Below, in pieces: positions 3,944 to 18,276 of a stretch of 39,044 nt of DNA; the first letter of the stretch is position 1, and each line of letters begins with the position of its first letter. Made by a program: the position numbers and the translations under genes. Location: NCBI GenBank assembly GCA_017442085.1, contig JAFSAW010000019.1, positions 1-39,044 of the forward strand, in the 5' to 3' direction. The notes beneath the pieces were generated by a model, which was not told where the DNA came from, did not search any database, and worked only from the letters and a program-made list of their open reading frames with translations. The DNA is from Oscillospiraceae bacterium (GTDB lineage Bacteria; Bacillota; Clostridia; Oscillospirales; Ruminococcaceae).

Positions 3944-5455
3944 ATGGAACAGAAAAATCCAAACATTGAAACAGTTGAAACAGAAGTTTCTTTAAGCGAA
4001 ATTCTGCAGGTTCGCCGCGACAAGCTTAAAGCATTGCAGGAAAAAGGCCAGGACCCATTTGCAAAAACAAAGTTCAATGTTACAAGCTATGCCAAAACAG
4101 AAGTGGACAACTTTGACGACGAAGCAGTAGAAGTTAAAACAGTAAGCCTTGCAGGCCGCATTATGTCCAAACGTGTTATGGGCAAAGCTGCATTTATGGA
4201 TTTGAGAGACAACAGCGGCAAAATTCAGCTTTATCTGCGTCAGGATGCTCTTGGCGTTGACTATTTTAAAGAAGTTTGCACATGGGACATCGGTGATATC
4301 GCAGGCGTTACAGGCGAGGTTTTCCGCACAAAACACGGCGAAGTTTCCATCCGTGTAAAAGCAATCGAACTGCTCAGCAAATCCTTGCTTCCGCTTCCTG
4401 AAAAATTCCACGGTCTTAAAGACCAGGATACACGCTACCGTCAGAGAGAACTTGACCTTATCGTAAACCCTGAAGTTAAGGATACATTTGTAAAACGCAG
4501 CCAGATTCTGCGCACACTCCGCGAATTTCTTGACAACCGCGGCTTCCTTGAAGTTGACACACCAATCCTCAACCCAATCGAAATCGGTGCAAGTGCACGT
4601 CCTTTCTACACACACCACAACACACTTGATATGGATATGGTGCTGCGTATCGAAACAGAACTTTATCTCAAACGCCTTATCGTTGGCGGCTTTGACAAAG
4701 TTTACGAAGTTGGCCGCATCTTCCGCAACGAAGGTATGGACACAAAGCACAACCCTGAATTTACATCCATCGAGCTTTATCAGGCATACACAGACTACAA
4801 CGGTATGATGGACCTTGTTGAAGATATGATGAAAACAGTTGCTTCCAAAGTTTGCGGCACACTGGAAATTCCATATCAGGGCAACACAATCAACCTTGGT
4901 CACTGGGAGCGTATGACAATGAAAGAAGCTGTTAAAAAATACAGCGGCGTTGACTTTGACACAATCGCAACAGACGAAGAAGCAATTGCAATTGCAAAAC
5001 AGCACAATGTTGACCTGCCTGAAGTTCCAAGCAAAGGCGCAATCCTTGCAGAATTCTTTGATGCTTTTGTTGAAGACAAGCTTATCCAGCCAACATTTAT
5101 CTACGACTACCCTGTAGAAATCTCTCCGCTTGCAAAACGCAAACCGGAAGACCCTGCATTTACAGAACGTTTTGAATACTTTATCAACGCAACAGAATTC
5201 GGCAACGCATTCAGCGAACTCAACGACCCAATCGACCAGCGCGCACGTTTTGAAAAACAGGTTGCAGACCGCAAAGCTCTGGAACCAAACACAAGAGCAC
5301 AGGTTGACTACGACTATGTAACAGCTCTCGAATACGGCCTTGCACCAACAGGCGGCCTTGGCTTTGGCCTTGACAGACTTGTTATGCTGCTTACAGACTC
5401 CAGCAGCATCCGTGACGTACTGCTGTTCCCAACAATGAAACCGCTGGATAAATAA
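3944..5455 (+). CDS. lysS: Lysyl-tRNA synthetase, class II
   Basis: Charges tRNA-Lys with lysine using ATP. 503 residues, full length. AGGAG lies just upstream of the ATG. An N-terminal OB-fold anticodon-binding domain (about residues 70-165, VSLAGRIMSKRVMGKAAF) is followed by the class II core: motif 1 around FLEVDTPILNP, motif 2 RIFRNEGMDTKHNPEFT (about 257-273) and motif 3 GLGFGLDRL (471-479). The last nine codons (FPTMKPLDK) and stop are duplicated at 14229-14258, because an integrated element has recombined into the gene's 3' end. The protein is left intact; only one silent base differs (Thr ACA here, ACT in the distal copy). The gene is now followed by the element's terminator at 5599-5628 rather than by the hairpin at 14310. 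Confidence 0.97.
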   Translation: MEQKNPNIETVETEVSLSEILQVRRDKLKALQEKGQDPFAKTKFNVTSYAKTEVDNFDDEAVEVKTVSLAGRIMSKRVMGKAAFMDLRDNSGKIQLYLRQDALGVDYFKEVCTWDIGDIAGVTGEVFRTKHGEVSIRVKAIELLSKSLLPLPEKFHGLKDQDTRYRQRELDLIVNPEVKDTFVKRSQILRTLREFLDNRGFLEVDTPILNPIEIGASARPFYTHHNTLDMDMVLRIETELYLKRLIVGGFDKVYEVGRIFRNEGMDTKHNPEFTSIELYQAYTDYNGMMDLVEDMMKTVASKVCGTLEIPYQGNTINLGHWERMTMKEAVKKYSGVDFDTIATDEEAIAIAKQHNVDLPEVPSKGAILAEFFDAFVEDKLIQPTFIYDYPVEISPLAKRKPEDPAFTERFEYFINATEFGNAFSELNDPIDQRARFEKQVADRKALEPNTRAQVDYDYVTALEYGLAPTGGLGFGLDRLVMLLTDSSSIRDVLLFPTMKPLDK

Positions 5456-5456
5456 T
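5426..5456 (+). other. Left attachment site (lysS-proximal 31-bp direct repeat)
   Basis: Encodes LysS FPTMKPLDK-stop plus a few bases. It matches 14229-14259 except at 5434 (A here, T at 14237), a silent third-codon position. Since lysS reads into the element, part of these codons probably derives from the element's own attachment site. Confidence 0.88.
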
Positions 5457-5537
5457 TGGTTTAAAATTGGCGAATAAAGTGGTTTAGGTGGCAATAATGG
5501 GGTGAATTTTGATGATTTCTCCAAAATATTTTGTACC

Positions 5538-5558
5538 ACTACACCCAAACTACACCCA
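5538..5558 (+). promoter_or_regulatory. Left arm-type integrase sites (two direct repeats)
   Basis: ACTACACCCA occurs at 5538-5547 and 5549-5558, an 11-bp period (one helical turn), 82 bp from the core repeat. The related ACTGCACCC occurs three times near the other end. A CCAGTTT/AAACTGG inverted repeat (5556-5573) abuts them. Confidence 0.6.
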
Positions 5559-5598
5559 GTTTATGAAAACTGGCAGAAAAGGATATGTTAATAATTAA

Positions 5599-5628
5599 GG
5601 ACAAGAGATAAAACTCTTGTCCTTTTTT
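5599..5628 (+). terminator. Intrinsic terminator inside the left end of the element
   Basis: GGACAAGAG (5599-5607) pairs perfectly with CTCTTGTCC (5614-5622), followed by six T. It would end lysS transcripts and insulate the exporter operon from lysS read-through. Confidence 0.9.
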
Positions 5629-5657
5629 GTTGAAAAATTTTATAAAAGCCCGACACC

Positions 5658-5689
5658 TTTAGTCTGTCTTTAAGGCGGAGACATATAAT
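5658..5689 (+). promoter_or_regulatory. Exporter operon promoter with predicted response-regulator box
   Basis: TTTAGTC (5658-5664), a 4-bp spacer and TTTAAGG (5669-5675) form two direct heptads at 11-bp period, typical of OmpR/PhoB-family sites. TATAAT (5684-5689) follows after 8 bp. The -35 hexamer position (AGTCTG) is far from consensus and lies under the heptads, as expected for an activator-dependent promoter. The same layout occurs at 9785-9816. Confidence 0.65.
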
Positions 5690-5721
5690 TGTTTCTGATA
5701 TTGAAAGGAGAAGTCTGACAG

Positions 5722-7653
5722 ATGAACAATTCAGAAACAGAAATTAAAAAAGAAAATCCAATAAAAAGATTTTTCAAAGGTTTATTGTCGAAATGCAAAA
5801 AGTATAAATTTATTACAGTTGTCACAGTGCTGGCGGTGATACTGCTGTTTTCGCTGTGGCGTCTGAACAATAATATGAAAGAAATTGAAGAAGCTACATA
5901 CAGCTTTGTCCGAACAACAACATTGTCAAGGGACGGGCTGGAAACGGCGGTCAATGTTACAGGCAGTGTGGAGAGTGCAAATACCTCTACAGTAAGCTAC
6001 TCGGCAGGTATGAATTCAAGTGCACCGAAAATCAAAACGGTAAATGCTGCTGTGGGTGACTATGTGCAGGAGGGCGATATTATTGTTGTGCTGGACAATA
6101 CAGATATCCTCGAAAAAATAACCGAACAGCAGGAACTTTTAAGCGAAAAAGCAGCAGAGCTGTATGAAAAATATGAAGATGCTGTTGAAGCTTACGAGGA
6201 TGCTGACGACGCATACGATAACAGCAAAACAGCGTTGGATGCCGCCTACAATGCTATGGTAAATGCGGAAAAGCAATTGAAAGCGGCAAAAAGCAGCATA
6301 GCAGCATTCCAGACAGACTATGACAATGCGGTAAAAGCCGAGGATGCGGCAGGCAAGACATATACAGAAACATACACAAAGCTTGTGAATGATATGAACA
6401 ATGCCGAAAGTGAACTTGCAGCGGCAAAGAGTGATGAGGCAGACAAAAAGGTTGCGGCGGAAAAGGCTGCGTCAGACCTGACCGCATCTCCAGAAGATAC
6501 TGCCTTGAAAGAAGCAAAGGAAGCGGCAAATAAAGCATACAGTGATGCACAGGCCAAAACAGCCGAAGCACAGGCGAAATATGACACGGCAAAGGGATTG
6601 GCTGATGATTTTACAAACAGCCAGACAGCTACAGATTATGCCAAGGCAAAGGAAAACACAAAAACAGCACTGGATAAGCTGAACACCGCCAAGGATGCAG
6701 CAAACTATTCAAGCTATGAATCTGCTTATAACAATGCGGTTTCTGCCTACAATTCTGCTGTTGCAGACAAACAGCAGCTTGACCAGAAGGCAGAAGCGGC
6801 AAAGGAAGCCATGGAACAGGCTTATGAAGCTTATGAGGACAGCCAGACAAACGACACACTGGAAGATTTGCAGGAACAGCTGGAAAACTGCAATCTCAAG
6901 GCCGAAACCAGCGGAAAGGTAACAAACCTTAATGCTGTTGTGGGTAACACAGTTAACGGCACAATTGCAACAATTCAGGATACAGACAGCCTGAAAATAT
7001 CGGTTACTGTAGGGGAAGCTGACATAAACACAGTCTCTGTCGGAATGAAGTGCAAAATCCGCAGTGACGCAACCGAAGGATATATCAGCGGCACTCTTAC
7101 ACAGATTGACCCTGTTTCCAGTCAGGGCGGCAGCTTTGGCGCAGAGGTTACTGTTGACGGAACAGCGCAGGGATTGCTTATCGGTATGAACGCTGATGTT
7201 GATATTATTATATCCGAAGTAAAGGGTTGCTTTACTGTACCTGCAGATGCCATAGGCGAAGATGAACAGGGCAGTTTTATCTATCGTCACACAAGCGGTG
7301 AAGGTGTGGATATGGAGTTTGAAAAGGTTTATGTAACCGTAGGAGAAAACAATGACTACTATGTTGAAATATCTTCTGACCAGCTTAATGAGGGAGATGT
7401 AATCCGCAGCTATGCAGACCTTACAATCGGTATTGAAACTGTAAGCGGAGAAGAAGCGGCACAGATGCAGAACTTTGGCGGTCTGTTAGGCGGCCTTATG
7501 GGCGGCGGAAATATGCCAAACGGCGGCGGTGCACCAGGTAATATGGGTGGCGGCAACCGAGATTTTGGCGGCAACGGCCAGAATGGCGGTCAGCGTCCTA
7601 ATATGCCAAGTGGCGGAGGGTTCCCCGGCGGTAACGGCGGAGGTATGCCATAA
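5722..7653 (+). CDS. HlyD/YknX-type membrane adaptor of an ABC exporter
   Basis: 643 residues, longer than usual for YknX-like adaptors (about 380-500). AAAGGAG lies 11 bp before the ATG. Order: short basic cytoplasmic N-terminus; one membrane helix at about 29-47; first half of the lipoyl-like domain (VNAAVGDYVQEGDIIVVLD, 107-125); a very long Ala-rich coiled coil (about 131-385); second lipoyl half (GKVTNLNAVVGNTV); beta-barrel region; and a Gly/Asn/Pro-rich tail (about 593-643) with many GGG repeats. Such adaptors link a MacB-type transporter to extracellular or wall components. It is the first gene of the three-gene exporter; its stop overlaps the next start by one base (TAATG), implying coupled translation. 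The closest functional analogue is YknXYZ of Bacillus, which protects against a toxic peptide; the substrate here is unknown. Confidence 0.85.
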   Translation: MNNSETEIKKENPIKRFFKGLLSKCKKYKFITVVTVLAVILLFSLWRLNNNMKEIEEATYSFVRTTTLSRDGLETAVNVTGSVESANTSTVSYSAGMNSSAPKIKTVNAAVGDYVQEGDIIVVLDNTDILEKITEQQELLSEKAAELYEKYEDAVEAYEDADDAYDNSKTALDAAYNAMVNAEKQLKAAKSSIAAFQTDYDNAVKAEDAAGKTYTETYTKLVNDMNNAESELAAAKSDEADKKVAAEKAASDLTASPEDTALKEAKEAANKAYSDAQAKTAEAQAKYDTAKGLADDFTNSQTATDYAKAKENTKTALDKLNTAKDAANYSSYESAYNNAVSAYNSAVADKQQLDQKAEAAKEAMEQAYEAYEDSQTNDTLEDLQEQLENCNLKAETSGKVTNLNAVVGNTVNGTIATIQDTDSLKISVTVGEADINTVSVGMKCKIRSDATEGYISGTLTQIDPVSSQGGSFGAEVTVDGTAQGLLIGMNADVDIIISEVKGCFTVPADAIGEDEQGSFIYRHTSGEGVDMEFEKVYVTVGENNDYYVEISSDQLNEGDVIRSYADLTIGIETVSGEEAAQMQNFGGLLGGLMGGGNMPNGGGAPGNMGGGNRDFGGNGQNGGQRPNMPSGGGFPGGNGGGMP

Positions 7654-8396
7654 TGGATAAACCTGATTTTCCTTTTGATGATTTCAAACTTAAAAAGCCT
7701 ATCATTCAGATGAAAAGTATCCGAAAAAGCTATTATATAGGAAAGCCGAATCAGCTGGAAATTCTCCACGGCATAGACCTTACGGTTTATGAGGGTGAAT
7801 TTGTAGCTATTGTAGGCGAAAGCGGCAGCGGCAAGTCCACGCTGATGAACATTATAGGTGCACTTGACCGCCCGACAGAGGGCAGCTATATTCTTGACGG
7901 TGTTGATATACAAAGGGCGGACGACAAAAGCCTGAGCGAGATACGCAACCGAAAAGTAGGTTTTGTATTTCAGACCTTTAATCTTATAGGCAGGCAGTCT
8001 GCACTGAAAAATGTGGAACTGCCTATGCTGTATGCAAAAGTGCCGCAAAAGGAGCGCAATGCCCGTGCAAAACAGCTGCTGGAGATGGTCAATATGTCTG
8101 AACGAATGAATCACCAGCCAAACGAACTCAGCGGCGGACAGAAACAGCGTGTAGCAATTGCAAGGGCGATGGCCAATAACCCTGCCATTATTCTGGCTGA
8201 CGAGCCTACAGGTGCGCTGGACAGTGCAACCAGCCGCACGGTTATGGATATTTTCCATACGCTCAACAAGGAGCACGGAAAAACCATAGTGCTCATCACT
8301 CACAGCCCTGCCCTTGCGGCTGAATGTGACAGAATAATCACCCTTGTTGACGGTGAGATTACTGATGACAGAAAGGGCGGCGGTAAATATGCTTGA
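7653..8396 (+). CDS. MacB/YknY-type ABC transporter ATPase
   Basis: 247 residues. Provides ATP hydrolysis for the exporter. Walker A GESGSGKST (about 55-63), Q-loop FQTFNLI, signature LSGGQKQR, Walker B IILADEPTG with D-loop ALD, and switch His in LITHS are all present, so it should be active. The sequence has the features of the LolD/MacB/YknY subfamily (ALDRPTEG, NVELPMLY). The start ATG overlaps the adaptor's stop, and its own last 8 bases overlap the permease start, so the three genes are translationally coupled. The N-terminal extension of about 18 residues before the ATPase core is slightly longer than usual. Confidence 0.93.
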   Translation: MDKPDFPFDDFKLKKPIIQMKSIRKSYYIGKPNQLEILHGIDLTVYEGEFVAIVGESGSGKSTLMNIIGALDRPTEGSYILDGVDIQRADDKSLSEIRNRKVGFVFQTFNLIGRQSALKNVELPMLYAKVPQKERNARAKQLLEMVNMSERMNHQPNELSGGQKQRVAIARAMANNPAIILADEPTGALDSATSRTVMDIFHTLNKEHGKTIVLITHSPALAAECDRIITLVDGEITDDRKGGGKYA

Positions 8397-9660
8397 CAAT
8401 ATATTAATGGCGTTGCAGAGCCTTAAAGCCAACAAGATGCGCGCTTTGCTGACAATGCTGGGAATTATTATAGGCATAGGTTCGGTTATTGCCATAGAAA
8501 CTGTGGGCAACAGCCTCAGCGGTTCAATTACAGACAGTATGTCGGGGTTTGGGGCAAGTGATATAACCGTGTCGGTTGCCGAAAAGGAGGACGATGACGA
8601 AAACACATCATCAGATGTGCGAATGCGTCTGTTCCGCCCGTCAAGCCCTGATGAGAGCGATTTGATAACCGATGTTATGCTTGCGGATTTCAGAGCGGCA
8701 TTTTCTGATAAAGTGAGATATATAAAGATAAGTGAAAATGCGGGCAGCGGCACATATCAGACAGGCAGTGACAGCACATCGCTTACTGTGGTGGGGGTAA
8801 ACGATGAATATATTCAGGCAGAGGAAACAGTAATTCTGTATGGAAGAAGTATCTCAAACAGTGCCGATGCAGATAAAAAGCTGTGTATGATTGCCGATAC
8901 CTTTGCAGAGGATTATATGGCTATCTCCCCTGTAAATGCAGTGGGAAAAGAACTCAGCATAAAGATAAACGGCACACCCCACAGCTTTTATATTGTGGGG
9001 GTGTATGAGTACACAGAAGACGAAACCCTTTCTGCTGTGGCAGGAGAAACGGTTACAGATATGTACATTCCCCTTTCCACAGCAAAAATCATCAGCGGCA
9101 GCTATGACAACTATTCCTCCGTTACGGTGGTCAGCGCAGAAGGAACAGATGTAACCTCTTTTATAGATGTGGCAGAAGAATTCTTTGCCAGCTATTACAC
9201 CCTTAACGACAGCTGGACTGCCACAGCCAGCAGTATGGAAACGCTGGTAAGCACACTTACGGAAATGCTGGATACAGTCAGCCTTGCCATAAGTGCAATT
9301 GCGGCAATCAGCCTGCTGGTGGGAGGTATCGGTGTAATGAATATTATGCTGGTTTCTGTGACTGAAAGAACAAAGGAAATCGGTACAAGAAAAGCTCTTG
9401 GTGCACCAAAAAACACAATTCTGATGCAGTTTATAATCGAGGCAGTTGTAATCTGTCTTGTGGGCGGTGCACTGGGCATTATGCTTGGCACAGGTCTGGG
9501 GGCGGTTGCCTGCAGCTTTATGGGGTACTCGGCAAAGGCTGATGTTGAAAGTATAATTCTGGTTGTGGGAATTTCTATGGCCATAGGTGTGTTTTTCGGA
9601 TACTACCCTGCAAACAAGGCAAGCAAACTTGACCCGATTGAAGCATTGAGGTATGAATAG
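8389..9660 (+). CDS. MacB/YknZ-type ABC transporter permease (FtsX domain)
   Basis: 423 residues from ATG 8389, which overlaps the ATPase stop by 8 bases; an upstream in-frame start at 8344 is less likely because it lies deeper in the ATPase gene. One N-terminal membrane helix (TMLGIIIGIGSVIAIE) is followed by a large extracellular MacB-type domain (about residues 45-290) and a C-terminal FtsX block of three helices (SAIAAISLLVGGIGVMNIM; IIEAVVICLVGGALGIML; SIILVVGISMAIGVFFGY). The conserved cytoplasmic loop VTERTKEIGTRKALGA and the ending NKASKLDPIEALRYE are classic MacB features. With 5722-7653 and 7653-8396 it forms a mechanotransmission exporter, probably for a peptide antibiotic or toxin. 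Confidence 0.92.
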   Translation: MLDNILMALQSLKANKMRALLTMLGIIIGIGSVIAIETVGNSLSGSITDSMSGFGASDITVSVAEKEDDDENTSSDVRMRLFRPSSPDESDLITDVMLADFRAAFSDKVRYIKISENAGSGTYQTGSDSTSLTVVGVNDEYIQAEETVILYGRSISNSADADKKLCMIADTFAEDYMAISPVNAVGKELSIKINGTPHSFYIVGVYEYTEDETLSAVAGETVTDMYIPLSTAKIISGSYDNYSSVTVVSAEGTDVTSFIDVAEEFFASYYTLNDSWTATASSMETLVSTLTEMLDTVSLAISAIAAISLLVGGIGVMNIMLVSVTERTKEIGTRKALGAPKNTILMQFIIEAVVICLVGGALGIMLGTGLGAVACSFMGYSAKADVESIILVVGISMAIGVFFGYYPANKASKLDPIEALRYE

Positions 9661-9784
9661 CTTTACTTTTTTTATATGTCATCACAAAGTCGGCAATAGG
9701 CAGATTTTTCTGTGATAATTCGGTGAATATACACATTATCAACAAATAAATCCATTTAATATAATTACACATTCAAGTACCTTC

Positions 9785-9816
9785 TTTAGTCTGTTTTTAG
9801 CTGTTGATAGTATGAT
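9785..9816 (+). promoter_or_regulatory. Response regulator promoter with predicted autoregulatory box
   Basis: TTTAGTC (9785-9791), 4-bp spacer, TTTAGCT (9796-9802), then 8 bp to TATGAT (9811-9816). Spacing and sequence match the exporter promoter at 5658-5689 (15 of 16 bases identical across the box). The leader would be only about 11 nt, with GGGGTGAT as ribosome binding site. Confidence 0.65.
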
Positions 9817-9833
9817 ATTATCGGGGTGATTTA

Positions 9834-10508
9834 ATGAAACTGCTTATTGCCGAAGATGACCCAAGACTGCTTAAAAGTCTGGTTTATATTTTTGAAAAGA
9901 ACAAGTACACAGTGGACGGTGTCTCCAGCGGGGATGCCGCCCTTGATTATGCTCTGACCGATGAATACGACGGTATAATTCTGGATATTATGATGCCCGT
10001 AATGGACGGCATCGAGGTGCTGAAAAATATACGAAACAAAAAAATAACCACTCCCGTACTGTTTCTGACTGCAAGAACAGAGGTTGAGCAAAGAGTGGAA
10101 GGGCTGGATGCAGGTGCGGATGATTATCTGCCAAAGCCTTTTTCCACACAGGAACTGCTTGCAAGGGTGCGAGCAATGCTGCGCCGAAAGGATAACTACA
10201 CGGCGGATATTGTGGAGTGCAAAGGTCTTGTGCTCAACCGCTCCACCTATCAGCTCGGCAGCGGAGAAAGCCTGCTGTCTTTAAGCAGCAAAGAATTTCA
10301 GATAATGGAAATGCTTATCCTTCGACAGGGCAATATGGTATCCACCGAACAGCTGATAAGCCATATATGGGGCTGGGATACCGATGTTGATACAAGTGTA
10401 GTTTGGGTACATATCTCCAATCTGCGCAAAAAGCTGGCTGCACTGGACTGCGGTGCCGAGATAAAATTTATCCGCAGCGGCGGATATGTGCTGGAGGTTA
10501 AGGAATGA
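9834..10508 (+). CDS. OmpR-family response regulator
   Basis: 224 residues. Receiver domain 1-118: acidic pocket E7/D8/D9, phosphoacceptor D51 (ILDIMMP), T79 (LFLTA) and K101 (LPKPF) are all present. The C-terminal winged-helix DNA-binding domain (about 128-222) contains LSSKEFQIMEML and VWVHISNLRKKL. It overlaps the kinase start by 4 bases (ATGA), so the pair is cotranslated. The shared heptad box before this gene and before the exporter suggests that it activates the exporter operon and its own gene when phosphorylated. The exact signal is unknown; location beside a MacAB-like exporter suggests a cell-envelope-active peptide. Confidence 0.93.
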   Translation: MKLLIAEDDPRLLKSLVYIFEKNKYTVDGVSSGDAALDYALTDEYDGIILDIMMPVMDGIEVLKNIRNKKITTPVLFLTARTEVEQRVEGLDAGADDYLPKPFSTQELLARVRAMLRRKDNYTADIVECKGLVLNRSTYQLGSGESLLSLSSKEFQIMEMLILRQGNMVSTEQLISHIWGWDTDVDTSVVWVHISNLRKKLAALDCGAEIKFIRSGGYVLEVKE

Positions 10509-11731
10509 TTTATTCCCTGCGAAAGAAATTCATAAAAATCAGTGCGGTTTCCATCCTTATTGTTTTTTCAGCCATATTTGCAGGCATTGCAGTTACAAAC
10601 CAGATACAGCTGAACGACACAATGGACACACTGACCGATGCAATATCCCGCAACGGAGGTGCTTTCCCCGATTTTAATAAAGGAAATCCTCCAAGGGATA
10701 GGCCTTTTAACAAACCTGACATCATAACCGAAGAAACAAAGTTCAGCACCCGCTTTTTTACCGTATGGCTGGATGATTATAACGAAATAATAAAGATAAA
10801 CACCGATTCAGTATTTTCAGTTGATGAGCAGCAGTCGGTGGAGTATGCACAGAAGGCACTGAACAAAAATAAAGAGCGTGGCTGGGTGGCAGATTACAGA
10901 TACAAAATTTTCAGCCATTTTGAGGGCAAAACCATCGTCTTTGTAAACGGAGAAATGAACCGTGCAGTATCCTACAGATTTCTGGTTGTTTCGTTTTTTG
11001 TTCTGCTGGGCAGCGGCATTGTGCTGCTTATGCTATTTGTGGTTATGTCAAAAAAGGTGGTTTCACCTATTGCCGAAAGCTATGACAGGCAAAAGCAGTT
11101 TGTCACCGATGCAAACCACGAACTGAAAACACCTCTTACGCTTATAATGTCCAATGTGGATATTGTGGAGGAAGAACTGGGCAAAAGCGAATGGCTGGAC
11201 GATATAAGAAGCGAAGGTCAGCGTATGACACAGCTTATAAACCGATTGGTTTCTCTTTCCCGTATGGATGAAGAGCATAATTCCATAGAGAGGAAAGATT
11301 TTAATCTGACAGGCGTGATTTACGATACTGCATCGGAATTTGTTCAGCTTGCAGCATCAAACAGCAAAATTCTCTACTGTATGGCGCAGCCCGATGTAAC
11401 TTACAAGGGTGACGAAGCACTCATACGCCAGCTTATGTCCATACTTCTGGACAATGCCGTAAAATATTGCGACACCGACGGAGATATACACGTTGACCTC
11501 AGCTTAAAACGACATCCGATTATAACGGAGGAAAATACATACACAGATGCAGACAATGTGGAACTGGACAAACTGTTCGACCGCTTTTACCGTGCCGACA
11601 AGGCCAGAACCTACGACGGCAGCTTTGGCATAGGTCTTTCGCTGGCAAAGGAAATCGTAAACAAACACGGCGGCGAAATTTCTGCATACAGAAAAGAAAA
11701 TGCCATCGGATTTAAAATTGAACTGAAGTGA
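10505..11731 (+). CDS. Sensor histidine kinase
   Basis: 408 residues. Two membrane helices (about 11-31 and 158-181) enclose a 125-residue extracellular sensor region with no domain I recognise. The dimerisation domain has the phosphoacceptor H205 in DANHELKTPL. The ATPase domain has the N-box (LLDNAVKYC, N317), an F-box-like FDRFYRAD and the G2 box (SFGIGLSLAKEI). The G1 box (DxGxG) usual between the N and F boxes is not recognisable: the segment reads NTYTDADNVELDKLFDRF. Some small clostridial kinases share this reduction, so activity is still plausible. It is the last gene before a strong terminator and the partner of the regulator at 9834. Confidence 0.9.
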   Translation: MIYSLRKKFIKISAVSILIVFSAIFAGIAVTNQIQLNDTMDTLTDAISRNGGAFPDFNKGNPPRDRPFNKPDIITEETKFSTRFFTVWLDDYNEIIKINTDSVFSVDEQQSVEYAQKALNKNKERGWVADYRYKIFSHFEGKTIVFVNGEMNRAVSYRFLVVSFFVLLGSGIVLLMLFVVMSKKVVSPIAESYDRQKQFVTDANHELKTPLTLIMSNVDIVEEELGKSEWLDDIRSEGQRMTQLINRLVSLSRMDEEHNSIERKDFNLTGVIYDTASEFVQLAASNSKILYCMAQPDVTYKGDEALIRQLMSILLDNAVKYCDTDGDIHVDLSLKRHPIITEENTYTDADNVELDKLFDRFYRADKARTYDGSFGIGLSLAKEIVNKHGGEISAYRKENAIGFKIELK

Positions 11732-11767
11732 TGCTGATTTGCATAATTCAACTGTAAAATGAAATAA

Positions 11768-11813
11768 CCCCGGAAGTATTCCATACGGAATATTTCCGGG
11801 GCTTTCTTTTTTT
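11768..11813 (+). terminator. Intrinsic terminator of the two-component operon
   Basis: CCCCGGAA (11768-11775) pairs with TTCCGGGG (11794-11801), and TATTCC pairs with GGAATA inside, with a 4-nt loop; a T-rich tract follows. Confidence 0.92.
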
Positions 11814-12299
11814 GTACAAATGCTTGTTTTTACAAACTGCCGTACTGCATATAGGTCAAAGATATATACGGTCCAATATATTAAAATAAAATTATATCAT
11901 AAATAATCTTATTTGTCGGTCCAAAAAAGGACCCGATTTCTTATAAAAATATTCTAAAATACAGGTAAGGTCGGGGTGCACACTGACCGGACATATATTA
12001 TACGCATAAATTGCGGGTTATACTGATAAAACACATTAAATTATATTATACCACATTTTAAAGTGTTCAGGGTTTCTCCGGAGAAAGCATTTTGGGGTTT
12101 TTTATTGTTACAATACATATAAGGTTAAAGTTGCAACGTAACCTGCAAAGAAAACGATAGCGGACATCGGATGGAAAAGCGCTTTAGGGTTTTGCATAGA
12201 GAGTATCTGCACGGATTTTGAAGGACGGGGAAAATCAGCGCAAAACTGCAGTTTCTGTAAAAGCAGATGGGATTTTATATGGAATAAACAGCCTTAAAG
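11814..12299. other. Gene-free AT-rich stretch upstream of xis
   Basis: I see no credible gene in these 486 bases. It holds small palindromes: TCGGTCC/GGACCCGA (11916-11936), the 14-bp palindrome TTTCTCCGGAGAAA (12073-12086) before a T-rich run, and AGGTTA...TAACCT enclosing GTTGCAAC (about 12122-12143). Such sites could be operators or RNA structure controlling excision. A 67-codon frame at 12218-12421 has no ribosome binding site and runs through the hairpins, so it is not called. Confidence 0.5.
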
Positions 12300-12413
12300 A
12301 GCCCGGGGCCGGCAATGCCGCGGGAGCGGGTAAAAAACCTTCTCAAAAGGTTTTGTCCCGCCAGGCGAAGCCGGCCCAGGCTTCCATAAGGTTAGTATTA
12401 CCCTTATGGAAGC
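12300..12413 (+). ncRNA. Candidate structured RNA between the kinase gene and xis
   Basis: Nested perfect pairings are visible: GGGCCGGC (12306-12313) with GCCGGCCC (12370-12377) encloses a hairpin (GCGGG 12326-12330 with CCCGC 12357-12361, and AAAACCTT with AAGGTTTT). A second hairpin follows with a 12-bp perfect stem (GCTTCCATAAGG 12380-12391 with 12402-12413). This density of pairing exceeds chance. I do not recognise a known RNA family; it could be an mRNA leader element controlling xis-int or a separate RNA. Confidence 0.45.
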
Positions 12414-12484
12414 AAATGTAGCGGTAGCAGAAAAAGAGGGTTAAACAGATGTTCAGCCACGGAAAGAAAAAGCAGAAAGATATG

Positions 12485-12520
12485 CATCTCTGCAACGCCC
12501 GAAAGCGTTTTTTAGAGATG
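12485..12520 (+). promoter_or_regulatory. Hairpin with internal terminator-like stem in the xis leader
   Basis: AACGC (12494-12498) pairs with GCGTT (12505-12509) and is followed by T-rich sequence; an outer stem CATCTCT (12485-12491) with AGAGATG (12514-12520) can form around it. It lies 45 bp before the xis start and could attenuate xis-int transcription. Confidence 0.5.
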
Positions 12521-12565
12521 TAAGCAAGGGTCTTTCGTTTGAAGGACAGCGTTAGGAGGTTAAAC

Positions 12566-12763
12566 ATGAAAGAAAGAGTAAGACTTAATGATAAGCCGAC
12601 ACTGACGATTGAAGAAGCTGCAGAACTTTACAGTATTGGTCAGCACAAGCTGAGAGCGCTTACAGATGACAGCAACTGTAATTTTGTACTGTTTGTAGGC
12701 CGAAAAAAGCTTATCAAAAAACGTCAATTTGATGAATACATCGCAAAGGCTTATTCAATTTAA
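12566..12763 (+). CDS. xis: Excisionase, Tn916 Xis type
   Basis: 65 residues from ATG 12566, chosen because AGGAGG (12554-12559) lies 6 bp upstream; an in-frame TTG start at 12539 lacks such a site. The small MerR-like helix-turn-helix has the family pattern LTIEEAAELYSIGQHKLRAL, then NFVLFVGRKKLIKKRQFDEYI, closely paralleling Tn916 Xis. It is a DNA-bending directionality factor that makes the neighbouring integrase favour excision. It lies 79 bp upstream of int in the same orientation, the usual module order. Confidence 0.85.
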   Translation: MKERVRLNDKPTLTIEEAAELYSIGQHKLRALTDDSNCNFVLFVGRKKLIKKRQFDEYIAKAYSI

Positions 12764-12842
12764 TATGTAGTAAAAGGGAAAAGGGTATGTTATAATTGCA
12801 GTAATATATCCTTTTTCTGCCTGTTAAGGAAGGAGAATATAA

Positions 12843-14075
12843 ATGGCAGAAAGAAGAAAAGATTCGAAGGGAAGAGTCTTAAAAGAGAATGAATCTCAGC
12901 GTTCTGATGGTATCTACTGTTACAGATGGAGAACATCAGACCACAAAAGACATTATATCTATGCAGGAACACTTGAAGAACTGCGAGAAAAAGAGAAAAA
13001 AGTGCAAAGAGATGTAAGCGACGGCATACGTGCTGATGCAACAAGGGTTAGCCTTAACGATATATATGAACTTTGGGTGGTTCTGAAAAAAGGATTGAAA
13101 CACAATACTTTTACCAACTATCAGTATATGTATAACCAGTTTGCGAGAGGTGATATCGGCAATATCAAAATTGTAAACCTTAAACGTTCTGATGTGCGCA
13201 GATTTTATAATCATTTGATAGACGACAAAGGACTGAAAATTGCTACTGTTGATAATATTCACACTGTTATACATCAGGTGTTGGATGTTGCGGTTGATGA
13301 TGGTTATCTGCGAAACAATGTAAGTGACAATGCGTTGAAAGAACTGAAAATGTCCCGCAATCTTTTTACCGAAAAGCGAAAAGCGCTCACCCTAGATGAA
13401 CAGCATATTTTTCTTGATTATCTCAGAAATACACCGCAATACAACCACTGGTATCCAGTATTTGCATTTATGCTTGGCACAGGCTTGAGAGTTGGCGAAG
13501 CAACGGGATTGAGATGGTGTGATATTGATATGGAGAATGGCAGTATCAGCGTCAATCATACTCTTGTATATTACAGCAGGGATAAAGGCCATTGCGGTTT
13601 TGCGGTAAATACACCTAAAACCAAGGCGGGAGAGCGCACAGTACCGATGATTGCAAGTGTAAAGGAAGCGCTGATGCTGGAAAAACAGTATCAGGAAGAA
13701 GCAGGGATACATAGCCGTGCACTGATAGACGGATTTACAGATTTTATATTTATCAACCGATTTGGCGATGTACAGCATTACGGAACACTCAACAAGGCAA
13801 TCAACCGCATAGTCCGTGACTGCAACAATGAAATACTGAACAATACAAAAAATATCGAAAAAGCAGTATTGTTGCCACATTTCAGTTGTCACACCTTGAG
13901 GCATACATTTACAACCAGATTGTGTGAATCGGGAATGAATGTAAAGGTAATTCAAGAAGTTTTAGGTCATTCGGATATTTCAACTACACTTGATATTTAT
14001 GCCGATGTAACAAGAGATTTGAAGAAAAGAGAAATGCAGAGGTTTGAAGATTTTATAGGTGAAACAAGAGTGTAA
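12843..14075 (+). CDS. int: Site-specific tyrosine recombinase (integrase), Tn916 type
   Basis: 410 residues with a GGAGAA site just upstream. The N-terminal arm-binding domain (about 1-65, RRKDSKGRVLKENESQRSDG) resembles Tn916 Int; a SAM-like core-binding domain spans about 70-165; the catalytic domain follows. The catalytic set is complete: R216 (GTGLRVGEA), Lys in the beta-hairpin around 259-261 (PKTKAGERTVP), H350 and R353 (HTLRHTF), H376 (LGHSDIS) and nucleophile Y386 (LDIYADV). It should act on the 31-bp core repeat in the lysS 3' end, with its N-terminal domain binding the ACTRCACCC repeats; three of these start five bases after its stop codon. It lies close to the right end of the element, as is typical. 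Confidence 0.95.
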   Translation: MAERRKDSKGRVLKENESQRSDGIYCYRWRTSDHKRHYIYAGTLEELREKEKKVQRDVSDGIRADATRVSLNDIYELWVVLKKGLKHNTFTNYQYMYNQFARGDIGNIKIVNLKRSDVRRFYNHLIDDKGLKIATVDNIHTVIHQVLDVAVDDGYLRNNVSDNALKELKMSRNLFTEKRKALTLDEQHIFLDYLRNTPQYNHWYPVFAFMLGTGLRVGEATGLRWCDIDMENGSISVNHTLVYYSRDKGHCGFAVNTPKTKAGERTVPMIASVKEALMLEKQYQEEAGIHSRALIDGFTDFIFINRFGDVQHYGTLNKAINRIVRDCNNEILNNTKNIEKAVLLPHFSCHTLRHTFTTRLCESGMNVKVIQEVLGHSDISTTLDIYADVTRDLKKREMQRFEDFIGETRV

Positions 14076-14079
14076 ATTC

Positions 14080-14112
14080 ACTGCACCCGTTACTGCACCC
14101 GTTACTGCACCC
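14080..14112 (+). promoter_or_regulatory. Right arm-type integrase sites (three direct repeats)
   Basis: ACTGCACCC occurs at 14080-14088, 14092-14100 and 14104-14112, a 12-bp period with GTT spacers, 117 bp from the core repeat. It matches the left-end ACTACACCC at all but one position. Confidence 0.62.
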
Positions 14113-14121
14113 AATTTGCGA

Positions 14122-14214
14122 AAACATATGAAAACAGGTGACAGTATATGTATGTTTTGTCTTGAAAAAGTGCAGCAAATGAGATAATATATAAACATAT
14201 GAAAGCTTATGAAA
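14122..14214 (+). repeat. AAACATATGAAA direct repeats near the right end
   Basis: AAACATATGAAA occurs at 14122-14133 and 14193-14204, with the related CTTATGAAA just after. TTATGAAA also occurs near the left end (5561-5568). These lie between arm sites and core, where excisionase usually binds and bends DNA; this role is inferred from position only. Confidence 0.4.
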
Positions 14215-14228
14215 TGGTTTCAGGGAAA

Positions 14229-14259
14229 TTCCCAACTATGAAACCGCTGGATAAATAAT
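14229..14259 (+). other. Right attachment site (displaced copy of the lysS 3' end)
   Basis: Reads in frame as FPTMKPLDK-stop and matches 5426-5456 with one silent mismatch. It is not preceded by lysS sequence. It probably retains the original chromosomal lysS tail, followed by what looks like the native lysS terminator. Confidence 0.88.
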
Positions 14260-14309
14260 AAATCCGTATAAAAGCGGCATTAAAGCGGCATTCAGATGAT
14301 AAAACATAA

Positions 14310-14354
14310 ATATCCGCCATACCATTGTTATGTGGTATGGCGGATATATTTTTG
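14310..14354. terminator. Strong bidirectional-type terminator, probably native to lysS
   Basis: A 14-bp perfect stem (14310-14323 with 14334-14347) is followed on the + strand by ATTTTTG. On the - strand it lies just past the end of the glycosyltransferase gene. An 11-bp tandem repeat AAAGCGGCATT (14271-14292) precedes it. Confidence 0.88.
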
Positions 14355-14368
14355 CTGTTATTTAAATT

Positions 14369-16180
14369 TTATTCTTCATACTTTGGCAGAACCCTTGCCT
14401 CGCTGAAATCTTCCATGTCAAGGGTAAGGTTAGGGTTGTAGAACGGGTCGCGCAGCAGGCCTTTGCCGTGGCGGTTCTGCAGGCGGTTGCGTTCGCCCTC
14501 AAAGCGTTCTTTTTTTTCGCCCTTCTTGTCGCTGCCTCGGCTTTTGCTTTCGTAGTGATAGCACTCGGCATAAGGTGTAAACAGCACCTGCCAGCCCATA
14601 TCACGTATGCGCAGGCAGAAGTCCACATCGTTGAAGGCAACGGTAAATTCTTCGTCCAGGCCGTTTGCGGCATCGTAGGCTTCTTTTGTCACCAGCAGGT
14701 TTGCGGCGGTAACACAGCTTAAATTCTGCACACAGGACAGACGGAACATATATCCGCTTTTTCCGCGGCGGTGATATTTGTGGCTGTGGCCCGCAAAGCC
14801 GCCAAGACCTGTGATAACGCCTGCGTGCTGCACTGTGTCGTCAGGATAGTAAAGCATTGCGCCCACAATGCCAACCTTTGGCTGAATTGCAAGGCTTACC
14901 ATTTCGGTCAGCCATTCGCTGTTGATAATTTCGATATCGTTGTTAAGCATCAGGTACATATCGCCCTTTGCCTGTCTTATTGCAAAATTGTTGATTGCAC
15001 TGAAATTGAAACCGCCCTTGTAATAAACAACCTTAAGGTTTTCGTGTTCGGCTTCGGCCTTTTTGTAATATTCAAAGGTGCTGTCTTCGGTGCTGTTGTT
15101 TTCACATACGATAATTTCAAAGTTTGTGTATGTGGTTTTTGCATAGATGCTGTCAAGGCACTTGCTTAAATCGTCAATATGGTCCTTGTTTGGAATAATA
15201 ATTGAAACAAGGGGCCGGCTTGTCAGTTCGTAGTCAATTTTGTATGTGCTGCCAAATCTGCCTGTGGTTGCCTTGCCCTTTATGCCAACACGTGCAAGGT
15301 GGTCATCAAGTGCACGGATTGCATTGGCTGTAACATAAGGCTTTGCATCAACGCCCCCCGATGTGCTCTGGGCGTGTACACGCCAATAGTAAAGTACCTT
15401 TGGAATGTGGTGGATTTTAACCCCGTCAATCTCGCTGATTTTAAGAAACAGGTCGTGGTCCTGTGCGCCGTTGTAATCATCATTAAGGCCGCCCACAGCT
15501 TCATAAACCGATTTGCGTATGCAGGCAAGGTGGCATATGTAGTTGCAGTTGGTCAGATAGTAATAGCTGTAGTCGGGTTTAAAATGGGCAACAATAGGGT
15601 TTGTCCAGTCGGTGTCAAACAGTGCTTCGTCGCTGTAGATAAAGTCGGCACCAGTTTCGTCAATAGCTTTTGCCATCTGATACAGTGCATCGGGGCTGAT
15701 GATATCATCGTGGTCACAAAGGCAGATATATTCGCCGTCCGCAAGGTCAATGGCTTTCTGCTGGTTGCCCGCAATGCCATAGTTTTTATCCAGCTTTACA
15801 TATTTTATTTTGTCGCTGTTCAAGGATTTTATGTATTCGCCCACATAGCTGTGATTTTCGTCACTGGCGTCGGCAAGACACAGCTGGCCATGGCTGTAGC
15901 TCTGGTTCAAAAAGCTCTGCACATATTCGGCAAGATGTTTTCTGTCGGTGTTGAACAGCGGTGTAACAATGCTGATGGTGCCGTCCTTTACACTCTGGCA
16001 TTTATAGCTTTTCTGCTTTTCAAGGGCATCCTTCGGCGGCAGAAAACGGCCTTTTTTGGCTTTCATTCTGCGGCGGAAAAAGCCCAGCGCACGTCTTGCT
16101 GTGCTGGAAAGCCCCTCTGTTTTTATATATTCAAAAAACAGAGCGATAAGTTCTTTAATTCTTCTGATTTTAAGTATCAT
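14369..16180 (-). CDS. Double-domain GT2 glycosyltransferase
   Basis: 603 residues from ATG 16180, chosen because AAAAGGAT precedes it; the frame extends further upstream only into repeat sequence. Two GT-A family 2 domains lie in tandem. The first (about 68-300) has ISIVTPLFNTD and the donor-binding CDHDDIISPDAL; the second (about 322-560) has VSIIIPNKDHIDDLSKC and LMLNNDIEI in place of DxD, followed by AFNDVDFCLR. The short basic N-terminus and lack of membrane helices suggest a cytoplasmic enzyme assembling a surface polysaccharide, as in rhamnan or teichoic-like pathways; sugar specificity cannot be told. It is closely paired with a paralogue upstream (18140-16317) and was probably transcribed with it. 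Confidence 0.88.
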   Translation of the reverse strand: MILKIRRIKELIALFFEYIKTEGLSSTARRALGFFRRRMKAKKGRFLPPKDALEKQKSYKCQSVKDGTISIVTPLFNTDRKHLAEYVQSFLNQSYSHGQLCLADASDENHSYVGEYIKSLNSDKIKYVKLDKNYGIAGNQQKAIDLADGEYICLCDHDDIISPDALYQMAKAIDETGADFIYSDEALFDTDWTNPIVAHFKPDYSYYYLTNCNYICHLACIRKSVYEAVGGLNDDYNGAQDHDLFLKISEIDGVKIHHIPKVLYYWRVHAQSTSGGVDAKPYVTANAIRALDDHLARVGIKGKATTGRFGSTYKIDYELTSRPLVSIIIPNKDHIDDLSKCLDSIYAKTTYTNFEIIVCENNSTEDSTFEYYKKAEAEHENLKVVYYKGGFNFSAINNFAIRQAKGDMYLMLNNDIEIINSEWLTEMVSLAIQPKVGIVGAMLYYPDDTVQHAGVITGLGGFAGHSHKYHRRGKSGYMFRLSCVQNLSCVTAANLLVTKEAYDAANGLDEEFTVAFNDVDFCLRIRDMGWQVLFTPYAECYHYESKSRGSDKKGEKKERFEGERNRLQNRHGKGLLRDPFYNPNLTLDMEDFSEARVLPKYEE

Positions 16181-16198
16181 AGATAAATCCTTTTCTGC

Positions 16199-16309
16199 GG
16201 CTCCCTCTGACGAGGGAGCTGTCACCACAGGTGACTGAGGGAGAGAATCTGAAAAGCCTCTCCCTCCGCTTCACTTTCGTTCAGCACCTCCCTCGGCAGA
16301 GGGAGGCTG
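16199..16309. repeat. Family 2 repeat (CTCCCTC/GAGGGAG)
   Basis: GCTCCCTCTGACGAGGGAGC is a small palindrome, followed by GTCACC...GGTGAC, TGAGGGAG and, after a spacer, CTCTCCCTC and CACCTCCCTCGGCAGAGGGAGG. It fills the gap between the two glycosyltransferase genes. A related partial copy ends the window at 38966-39016. Confidence 0.75.
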
Positions 16310-16316
16310 TTGTTAT

Positions 16317-18140
16317 TTACTTGTATCCGTAATTTTCGTACAGCAGAGTAAAATGCGGGTTGTAATAATGGTCACCATAATTGAAATATTTCTGCCATTT
16401 TTCTGCAAAGCGTGCCTTTTCGCCCTCATAGCGCGGGTTTGGCTTGTCGGTGTCGCTGCCGCGGCTTTTGCTTTCGTAATGGAAGCCCTCTGCATAAGGT
16501 GTAAACACGTTGAGATATCCGTCATCGTACATTTTAAGGCAGAAATCAATGTCGTTGTATGCAACGGCAAAGTTTTCTTCGTCCAGCTTGTATCTGTTGT
16601 ACAGTTCTGTCTTAACCATAAGGCAGGCACCTGTAACCGCCATATAGTTCTGTGCGGTAACAAGGCGGTACATATCCCCCGTGTTGTCCTTGGCGTTGTG
16701 CAGCCCCTTGTGGCTGTGGCCCGCACTGCCGTTTATGCCTATGATAACACCTGCGTGCTGCAAAGTGCCGTCAGGATAGTACAGCTTTGCACCCACCGCA
16801 CCAACGTCTTTGCGCTGGCTGAACATAAGCATCTCAACAAGGAAATCTTCGCTGGTAAATTCCACGTCGTTGTTAAGCAGCAGAATATGGTCGCCGCTTG
16901 CATACTGTGCCCCAAAGTTGCAGATGGCACTGAAGTTAAAGCCGCCTTCGTAGTATACAACCTGCAGATTGTCATACTCTTTAAGTGCTTTTTCGTAGTA
17001 TTCAAAGGTGGACTGTTCGGTGCTGTTGTTTTCCACAACAATAATTTCCACGTTGTCCCAGCCGCCTTTTTCCTTTATGGAAGAAAGACAGCGGCTTAAA
17101 TCTTCAATATTGTCCTTGTTTGGAATTATAATGCTGATTTTGGGGTTGCCGTCAATTGCATATTTTACGCGGTAGCTGCCCGGCCATTTCTGTATGGAAA
17201 CTTCACCCTTTAAGCCCACGCGGTCAAGGTGTGCGGCAATGGCGGCACGGCCTGCTTCAAAGGCGTACATCTTTGCGCTCATATCATTGGCAGTGCTGCC
17301 TGCGTGGCCGCGCCAGTAGTAAAGCACTTTAGGGATATGATATACACATTCTGCCTTTTCGCAAAGGCGCAGTGTCAAATCAAAGTCCTGTGCGCCGTCA
17401 AAGGCCTTGTCTTCGTAAAAACCAACCTTTTCGGCAAGTTCCTTTTTAAACACAAGAAAATGGGTTATGTAGTTGCAGCCTCTCAAAAAGTCGGGCGCAT
17501 AGTTGATTTTAAAGTGAAACTGGATAAGGTGCTCCAGCTTGCCGTCAAGGGTGATTTCGTCGCTGTAAAGCACATCTGCCCCGTGGTCGTTGATTGCCTT
17601 TACGTTTTCGTAAAGGGCATTTGGCAGAATAACGTCATCGTGGTCAAGCAAAGCGATATAGTCACCTGTGCAGTGCTTAAAGCCAAAGTTTGTGTTTTCG
17701 GCAATGCCAAGGTTTTCTTCCATAACTACATAGGTTATGCGGTCATCCTTTGCGGCTTTCTGTTCAATTTCCGGGTAGCTGCCGCTTGCATTTACCAAAA
17801 CAAGCTGCCAGTTGGTATAGCTTTGGTTTTCAACGCTTTCCACCATCTCCAGCAGAAAATCCTTTGGTGTGTTGTACAGCGGTACCACAATGCTGATTTT
17901 TGGCATATATTCAAATTTTGTTATGCGCTGTTCCTTAAGTTCACGCTTAAGGGGTATATCGCTGCGGAACTGCCACACATCTCTTTTAAGCATAAGATTA
18001 ACGCGGAACTGCACCTTGCGTTGTGTTGCTTCAAGGCCCTCGTTTTTAATGCTGTTAAAGCCGCGCTTTGCCAGATGTGCCACGCGGTTTATATTGAGAT
18101 TGCGTTTTAAAAACCTCAATGGGCTGTCCTGAATATCCAT
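16317..18140 (-). CDS. Double-domain GT2 glycosyltransferase (paralogue of the next gene)
   Basis: 607 residues from ATG 18140, preceded on its strand by AAAGGAGC; the longer open frame to 18260 has no ribosome binding site. Architecture matches the 14369-16180 protein: an N-terminal linker (RFLKRNLNINRVAHLAKRG), first GT2 domain with ISIVVPLYNTPK and LLDHDDVILPNAL, second GT2 domain with ISIIIPNKDNIEDLSRC and LLLNNDVEF, then AYNDIDFCLK. Both proteins share WRGHAGST/WRVHAQST and HYESKSRGSD motifs, so they arose by duplication and probably add successive sugars in the same glycan. The upstream flank carries a long array of palindromic repeats. Confidence 0.88.
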   Translation of the reverse strand: MDIQDSPLRFLKRNLNINRVAHLAKRGFNSIKNEGLEATQRKVQFRVNLMLKRDVWQFRSDIPLKRELKEQRITKFEYMPKISIVVPLYNTPKDFLLEMVESVENQSYTNWQLVLVNASGSYPEIEQKAAKDDRITYVVMEENLGIAENTNFGFKHCTGDYIALLDHDDVILPNALYENVKAINDHGADVLYSDEITLDGKLEHLIQFHFKINYAPDFLRGCNYITHFLVFKKELAEKVGFYEDKAFDGAQDFDLTLRLCEKAECVYHIPKVLYYWRGHAGSTANDMSAKMYAFEAGRAAIAAHLDRVGLKGEVSIQKWPGSYRVKYAIDGNPKISIIIPNKDNIEDLSRCLSSIKEKGGWDNVEIIVVENNSTEQSTFEYYEKALKEYDNLQVVYYEGGFNFSAICNFGAQYASGDHILLLNNDVEFTSEDFLVEMLMFSQRKDVGAVGAKLYYPDGTLQHAGVIIGINGSAGHSHKGLHNAKDNTGDMYRLVTAQNYMAVTGACLMVKTELYNRYKLDEENFAVAYNDIDFCLKMYDDGYLNVFTPYAEGFHYESKSRGSDTDKPNPRYEGEKARFAEKWQKYFNYGDHYYNPHFTLLYENYGYK

Positions 18141-18276
18141 AGATAGCTCCTTTATATAAAAGTTTACATATTTATCTAAAATAAAGTATAACACAACAGC
18201 ATATTTGCTTTCAACAGGCAGTTTTGAGCCGGTGGGGAAGGGGGCGAAATTTTCTGTCAATCAGAGTGCTCCGCTT

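Follow-up and report, generated by a model that had tools for sequence, protein, structure and literature searches.

The stretch of DNA analysed here (the window) comprises 39,044 nt from an Oscillospiraceae bacterium (GCA_017442085.1, contig JAFSAW010000019.1, positions 1–39,044, forward strand), in which a small mobile element sits in the end of lysS, an essential gene of this gut bacterium, and leaves the protein unaltered. A repeat search finds a 31-nt direct repeat with a spacing of 8803, one copy ending lysS and the other following an integrase gene, identical at 30 of 31 positions (97%). The lone mismatch is an A/T difference at position 5434 versus 14237, and both copies read TTC CCA AC(A/T) ATG AAA CCG CTG GAT AAA TAA, which encodes the last nine residues of LysS (FPTMKPLDK) and the stop. 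The variant codon is synonymous, ACA and ACT both specifying Thr. By simple arithmetic, a pair of 31-mers with at most one mismatch is expected by chance in a 12.5-kb stretch with a frequency of ~1e-9. A preliminary description of this DNA had reported the repeat with its mismatch, the LysS codons in both copies and the position of the right copy just beyond the integrase gene, all of which are borne out, with 153 nt separating the end of int from the right copy. Between the repeats lie 8.8 kb that carry five cargo genes and then, after 0.8 kb in which no gene was recognised, xis and int (Table 1). No tRNA genes were found in the window.

Table 1. The lysS element, its attachment (att) sites and its genes, in window coordinates; G codes denote genome assemblies
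Feature	Position	Strand	Basis
lysS, lysyl-tRNA synthetase gene of the host, with the integration site in its last codons	3944..5455	+	Pfam PF00152 1.6e-88
attL, left copy of the 31-bp repeat, nine final LysS codons and stop, most likely element-supplied 3′ of the exchange point	5426..5456	+	repeat search; side from G004, G011
Two TACACCC repeats, candidate integrase arm-type sites, left end	5540..5557	+	by analogy with Tn916 DR2
Cargo block, found outside lysS on G006:C61 at 96.9% identity over 6080 nt	5654..11727		DNA comparison
HlyD/RND-type membrane-fusion protein, 643 aa	5722..7653	+	Pfam HlyD_3 2e-10; NCBIfam RND_mfp 6e-27, 94.5 bits against cut-off 94.9
ATP-binding cassette (ABC) transporter ATPase, MacB/LolD-like	7653..8396	+	Pfam; NCBIfam scores below model cut-offs
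MacB_PCD + FtsX permease	8344..9660	+	Pfam/NCBIfam; listed start of open reading frame, true start perhaps slightly downstream
Response regulator, winged-helix output domain	9834..10508	+	Pfam/NCBIfam
Sensor histidine kinase	10505..11731	+	Pfam/NCBIfam
Core module: origin-like hairpin, xis, int, attR; 92.4% identical to G011:C27	12043..14263	+	DNA comparison
Candidate rolling-circle origin hairpin, 12-bp perfect stem, 10-nt loop TTAGTATTAC	12380..12413	+	RF03070 match; DNA fold
Two iterons, TGTAGCG GTAGCAG, presumed Rep-binding repeats	12417..12430	+	alignment of 19 motif instances
xis, Tn916-type excisionase	12566..12763	+	PF09035 1.9e-17; TIGR01764 6.5e-8
int, Tn916-type tyrosine recombinase, 410 aa	12843..14075	+	PF02920 1.8e-17; PF00589 4.7e-30
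Three TGCACCC repeats, candidate integrase arm-type sites, right end	14082..14112	+	sequence motif
attR, right 31-bp repeat, most likely the displaced original lysS end	14229..14259	+	repeat search; G011 comparison

The integrase combines the Integrase_DNA and Phage_integrase domains of Tn916-type enzymes and adjoins att repeats derived from the lysS 3′ end, the arrangement of a lysS-targeting element. Short repeats lie at both ends: two TACACCC units, starting 84 bp inside the left repeat, and three TGCACCC units, 117–147 bp inside the right one. These five make up half of the ten + strand occurrences of T[AG]CACCC in the window, and we take them to resemble the DR2 arm-type sites of Tn916. 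The preliminary description had proposed that the lysS 3′ end is the integration site of the element's own tyrosine recombinase, with LysS preserved by a synonymous copy that the element carries. The int and xis families, the arm-like repeats, other occupants of the site and a recombined lysS tail in a related genome (G004) support site-specific integration of this kind.

A lysS match at E < 1e-100 was present in 37 of 41 genomes, and downstream DNA was taken for a selection of these. Comparison of such regions, the check that the preliminary description had named, reveals other elements at the same site: G006 carries a 15.7-kb element with an integrase 54% identical to that of the window, and the sister species (G011) carries one with a 41% identical integrase, together with a separate contig on which a 96% identical integrase is followed by att. 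Three relatives of the same genus, G002, G007 and G014, have a single copy of the lysS tail in the 17–18 kb read 3′ of lysS (up to 7 mismatches in 30 allowed), and no integrase match at 1e-8 in those stretches. In G004, where a 60% identical integrase is followed by an att copy, the last 25 nt of lysS differ from the window at 7 positions, whereas the gene body differs at 79 of 1487 (P 2.5e-4), and the att copy beyond the integrase, which lies on another contig, matches the window lysS tail with 1 mismatch in 30. This is the best sign of recombination at the lysS tail. At the right end, the window and G011 are 98% identical up to the repeat edge (3 of 152 positions differ) and then differ at 5 of 30. 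From these two comparisons the exchange point most likely lies near TTCCC at the 5′ edge of the repeat, and for this reason the copy at the present end of lysS, on the left, was most likely supplied by the element, the right copy being the displaced host end.

The same site recurs among integrase relatives. We took the best 80 of at least 498 confirmed loci (56–96% identity to the window integrase), of which 78 have at least 150 nt beyond int and could be scored for att. The lysS-tail core (at most 1 mismatch) lies within 600 nt beyond int in 57 of these 78 and is exact in 40 (0 of 1560 in a shuffled control); lysS itself lies upstream in the retrieved stretch in 10, and 8 of these 10 have both lysS and the tail core. 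lysS is thus a landing site that integrases of this family use widely in Clostridia, and related integrases are combined with different transfer modules. In the integrase tree, the window enzyme pairs with that of G011 (support 1.0) inside a clade with L085, L086 and L087 (1.0), and four other hairpin-bearing lysS elements (L192, L239, L096 and L104) form a separate clade (1.0). Because the modules between lysS and related integrases differ by eye from locus to locus, they seem to have been exchanged between elements. A viral contig set contained neither close relatives of the integrase nor an exact copy of the window hairpin.

That hairpin, which lies at 12380–12413 ahead of xis, and the missing replication initiator discussed below had escaped the preliminary description, whose reading of the integration otherwise stands. 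In an Rfam scan of 5400–14400, RF03070 is the only family found (12382–12429, 59.1 bits against a gathering cut-off of 41.5), and the hairpin folds as DNA with a z of -3.3, none of 200 shuffles being as good. AGTATTAC lies in the loop of all 19 aligned motif instances and is followed by iteron-like repeats. Origins of circoviruses and geminiviruses carry a TAGTATTAC or TAATATTAC loop. The arms vary among elements and yet pair, with a mean score of 10.0 against 4.9 when 3′ halves are swapped (500 swaps among elements anchored on the loop, standard deviation 0.44, maximum 6.7); G421 is the one instance of 19 that does not pair in this script. RNAalifold on a MAFFT alignment of the instances returned no pairs, we think because stem lengths vary, and the model built from them (R1) was therefore sequence-only; over 96 sources it matches only the window and the copy in the sister species (L066). 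The RF03070 motif is present in 2 of 61 relatives (the window genome and G011), in 17 of 394 genomes of the order (12 above the cut-off) and in 7 of 391 of the class, two of which are already in the order count. RF03070 is filed in Rfam as a small RNA (sRNA) gene (ssNA-helicase). The adjoining Rep genes, the pairing of arms with unrelated sequences and the constant loop are evidence that points to a DNA replication origin of the kind found in circular Rep-encoding single-stranded (CRESS) DNA viruses. An origin of transfer (oriT) of MobV type, our initial idea for the hairpin, was displaced by the RF03070 match and the Rep neighbours. The match in G722 is below the cut-off and lacks AGTATTAC, and a further motif with iterons at 9945–9994 of L242 (G745:C5) has no Rep among the open reading frames (ORFs) listed beside it.

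A circovirus-type Rep (PF02407) is detected in 14 of the 18 motif-bearing genomes that formed the test set (five class genomes found later were judged by eye and stand outside the 18), and all 15 Rep matches begin 37–120 nt past a hairpin. With a Rep-like ORF seen by eye in G364, only the window's genome (G000), G011 and G106 are without Rep among the 18. The Rep of L192 matches Viral_Rep at 1e-9 and, at 4e-11, PDB chain 7lar, a Rep helicase that we take to be a circovirus protein. A P-loop pattern identifies coupling-protein-like ORFs in 9 of the 17 loci L183–L199. L192 is a complete element at lysS, with the order lysS, att at 2349, a 108-aa gene, hairpin, Rep, an FtsK-like gene, xis, int and att at 14007; L239 is also complete and has the same order with a weaker right att (3 mismatches), and both integrases are 59% identical to that of the window. 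The named lysS elements L086, L096 and L104 carry a related hairpin, followed by other repeats, and a second type of Rep (0 hairpin matches in one shuffle of 1.6 Mb). A hairpin of the same kind, of 14 bp, precedes an unassigned 455-codon frame in L101. With Rep and coupling proteins as queries, L192, L239 and L086 match at 1e-90 or better, and the window and L066 yield nothing at 1e-3. The hairpin, xis and int are present in the window element and in the sister copy, with the iterons ~135 nt from xis in both. In G106, a 77-aa ORF past the hairpin starts like Rep (MPNTQSRKYQLTINNP, ~16 residues; weak Rep match at 5e-4) and by eye runs into Xis-like sequence, and loss of Rep therefore does occur.

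The window element and L066 were compared as two copies that lack Rep. In G011, the DNA upstream of the position equivalent to 12043 has no match to the window, which implies that the core has been joined to other DNA. Within the core, int differs by 65 synonymous and 20 non-synonymous changes, giving a ratio of non-synonymous to synonymous substitution rates (dN/dS) of 0.068 at dS 0.31; for xis dN/dS is 0.064 at dS 0.73, and for lysS, as a comparison, dN/dS is 0.107. Both genes are under strong purifying selection (dN/dS 0.07), because of which the Rep-less form looks maintained.

The cargo has a separate history. Its five genes encode a membrane-fusion protein, an ATPase and a permease that resemble MacB/LolD-type exporters, and may serve in ABC efflux, followed by a two-component pair. 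Against the copy of this block in G006, which lies outside lysS, dS is 0.05–0.08 for the four of five genes computed, against 0.33 for lysS, a difference that points to movement of the block between species. By these comparisons, the block is recently transferred and was acquired separately from the core. No hairpin of the RF03070 kind accompanies the copy on G006:C61, and both integrase-family matches of G006 lie on other contigs. G004 has the gene that comes after the block in G006 and lacks the block itself. An IS200-type transposase-like ORF, seen by eye, precedes the block in G006:C61.

We consider it probable that this is a non-autonomous element of the lysS 3′ end that excises itself, needs Rep in trans and carries independently moved efflux and two-component cargo. 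Int, helped by Xis, would recombine the element's att site with the last lysS codons, such that the element supplies the last ~eight LysS codons and the host tail is displaced to the right end. Excision would yield a circle bearing a putative CRESS-type rolling-circle origin, formed by the hairpin with its AGTATTAC loop and the two iterons. In autonomous relatives this origin immediately precedes a Viral_Rep-type Rep, in many cases with an FtsK/TcpA-like coupling protein; the window element lacks both, and an autonomous element would therefore have to provide Rep in trans for nicking in replication and/or conjugative mobilisation. Several points weigh against this model. Rep, and with it a candidate helper, is found in 0 of 61 assemblies searched (host, sister and other relatives); PF02407 is likewise negative for G000 and G011, at only 83% and 76% completeness. 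The exact empty site of the window was seen in no relative examined, and the pairing of lysS with the right att in G004 is inferred because these two ends lie on different contigs. From the window to G011 the hairpin–iteron block differs at 1 of 61 positions and the remaining non-coding core DNA at 49 of 691 (P 0.064), so that the block is only moderately better conserved, which is suggestive at most. A coupling-protein remnant between hairpin and xis, indicated by one pairwise match (score 42, 0 of 300 shuffles, 1 of 7 comparisons), was rejected when a profile of 8 coupling-protein N-termini ranked the G011 peptide 92 of 5423, and because this profile test failed, an origin by deletion is not shown for the window element.

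The absence of a detectable Rep or relaxase from the element and its assembly, together with the truncated Rep–Xis ORF of G106, would also fit a decaying remnant: an element once mobilisable and of CRESS type that, having lost Rep and its coupling protein, became immobile and survives for its cargo only. We regard this as unlikely, given that int and xis remain strongly constrained at the dS values above and that copies in two species have differing DNA upstream of the core, which has thus recombined since the form arose. Less likely still is movement that does not use the hairpin, by natural transformation, by transduction or as passenger of an adjacent or tandem lysS element, with the hairpin an idle relic or an RNA. 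The sRNA entry in Rfam favours this, as does a possible tandem of lysS elements in G011 (L065 and L066), where by eye the first right att is followed by left-end-like sequence up to the contig end; the position beside Rep, the pairing of unrelated arms and the constant loop fit a DNA origin instead, and the hairpin is intact in both Rep-less copies. That there is no element at all, the 31-bp match being a partial lysS duplication beside ordinary host genes, has as its sole support the occurrence of the cargo operon outside lysS in G006, and is highly improbable: an integrase and an excisionase are present, the same layout with other genes recurs in G006, G011, L192, L239 and the named loci, and occupied and single-copy lysS sites already contradict it. 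Beyond the helper-dependent element that we favour, we tentatively suggest, at slightly less than even chances, that the CRESS-type mobilisable elements of gut Clostridia have satellites that lack Rep and are maintained as a class, retaining int, xis and a circovirus-like origin, drawing on Rep and coupling protein in trans and filling the space so gained with exchangeable cargo, and that RF03070 is really their DNA origin. If such elements are active, a further tier of hitchhiking elements is served in trans by circovirus-type Reps. RF03070 gains a probable function.

The preliminary description had left open whether lysS is a new target, and it is not: streptococcal integrative and conjugative elements (ICEs) such as ICE_SsuGZ1_lysS integrate in the lysS 3′ end (PMC4701971, PMC7168690). 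They share with the window element a tyrosine integrase, the lysS 3′ end, direct repeats of lysS codons and a hardly altered LysS, and differ in their conjugative nature, their transfer module and the length of their repeats (13 or 17 bp). The window element has 8.8 kb, a 31-bp repeat and no transfer genes or conjugation machinery that we could find, its five other recognised genes being those for efflux and two-component signalling. Among integrative and mobilisable elements (IMEs), streptococcal members with a Viral_Rep relaxase (Rel_PF02407) and TcpA are published (PMC5357655, PMC5704250) and have the same compact order ending in xis and int; an origin-like hairpin, found here, precedes such Reps. 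The window element has its own integrase and excisionase and a CRESS-type hairpin as candidate origin of transfer, whereas a relaxase, Rep or TcpA was not detected. The integrated pCRESS plasmids (PMC6668415) likewise are bacterial elements that integrate at specific sites and carry a replication module of CRESS type; the window shows the corresponding hairpin with its AGTATTAC loop and iterons (a feature defined here and not in that report), in contrast without Rep, the Viral_Rep nuclease giving 0 matches in G000 and the window. Hitcher elements (PMC11389934) are described as depending on a helper for transfer, as we propose here, where the borrowed protein would be a CRESS-type Rep, a dependence for which our literature searches gave no example.

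A cis-mobilisable element (CIME) is an att-flanked remnant without an integrase; the window int is intact and constrained. Tn916 shares the integrase domains and excisionase family with the window element, which differs in being site-specific and in the transfer genes, which were not found. No Rep-less CRESS element is named among the titles and abstract openings listed by our searches of the PMC open literature. The new part is the origin without its initiator, and the integration site was already known.

The DNA adjoining the occupied lysS site is, from the positions of neighbouring genes, rearranged. The glycosyltransferase gene next to attR (14369–18260) is on the strand opposite to lysS; in G014:C2 and G007:C7 its homologue shares the strand of lysS and lies ~29 and ~40 kb 3′ of it, and in G004:C32 the glycosyltransferases that flank the window element lie 14 kb past att, on the strand opposite to int. 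In G014 (L068), a DNA methyltransferase-like ORF, seen by eye, begins ~30 nt past lysS and is perhaps other cargo or a relic at the same site, with no integrase match of the window family in the stretch read. Two partial integrase copies and type IV secretion-like ORFs (by eye) 3′ of lysS in G020 (L074) are probably ICE remnants. Four small GenBank records labelled "Bacteriophage sp." (L200–L203; MT839623, MT838008, MT838679, MT839044) carry integrases of the window family; a lysS-type core (3 mismatches) follows int in L200, L202 and L203, few other genes are present in L200 and L201, and these records may be integrative elements, not phages. Four tandem Xis-like stretches precede int in both L075 (18.1–19.1 kb) and L200 (1.6–2.6 kb).

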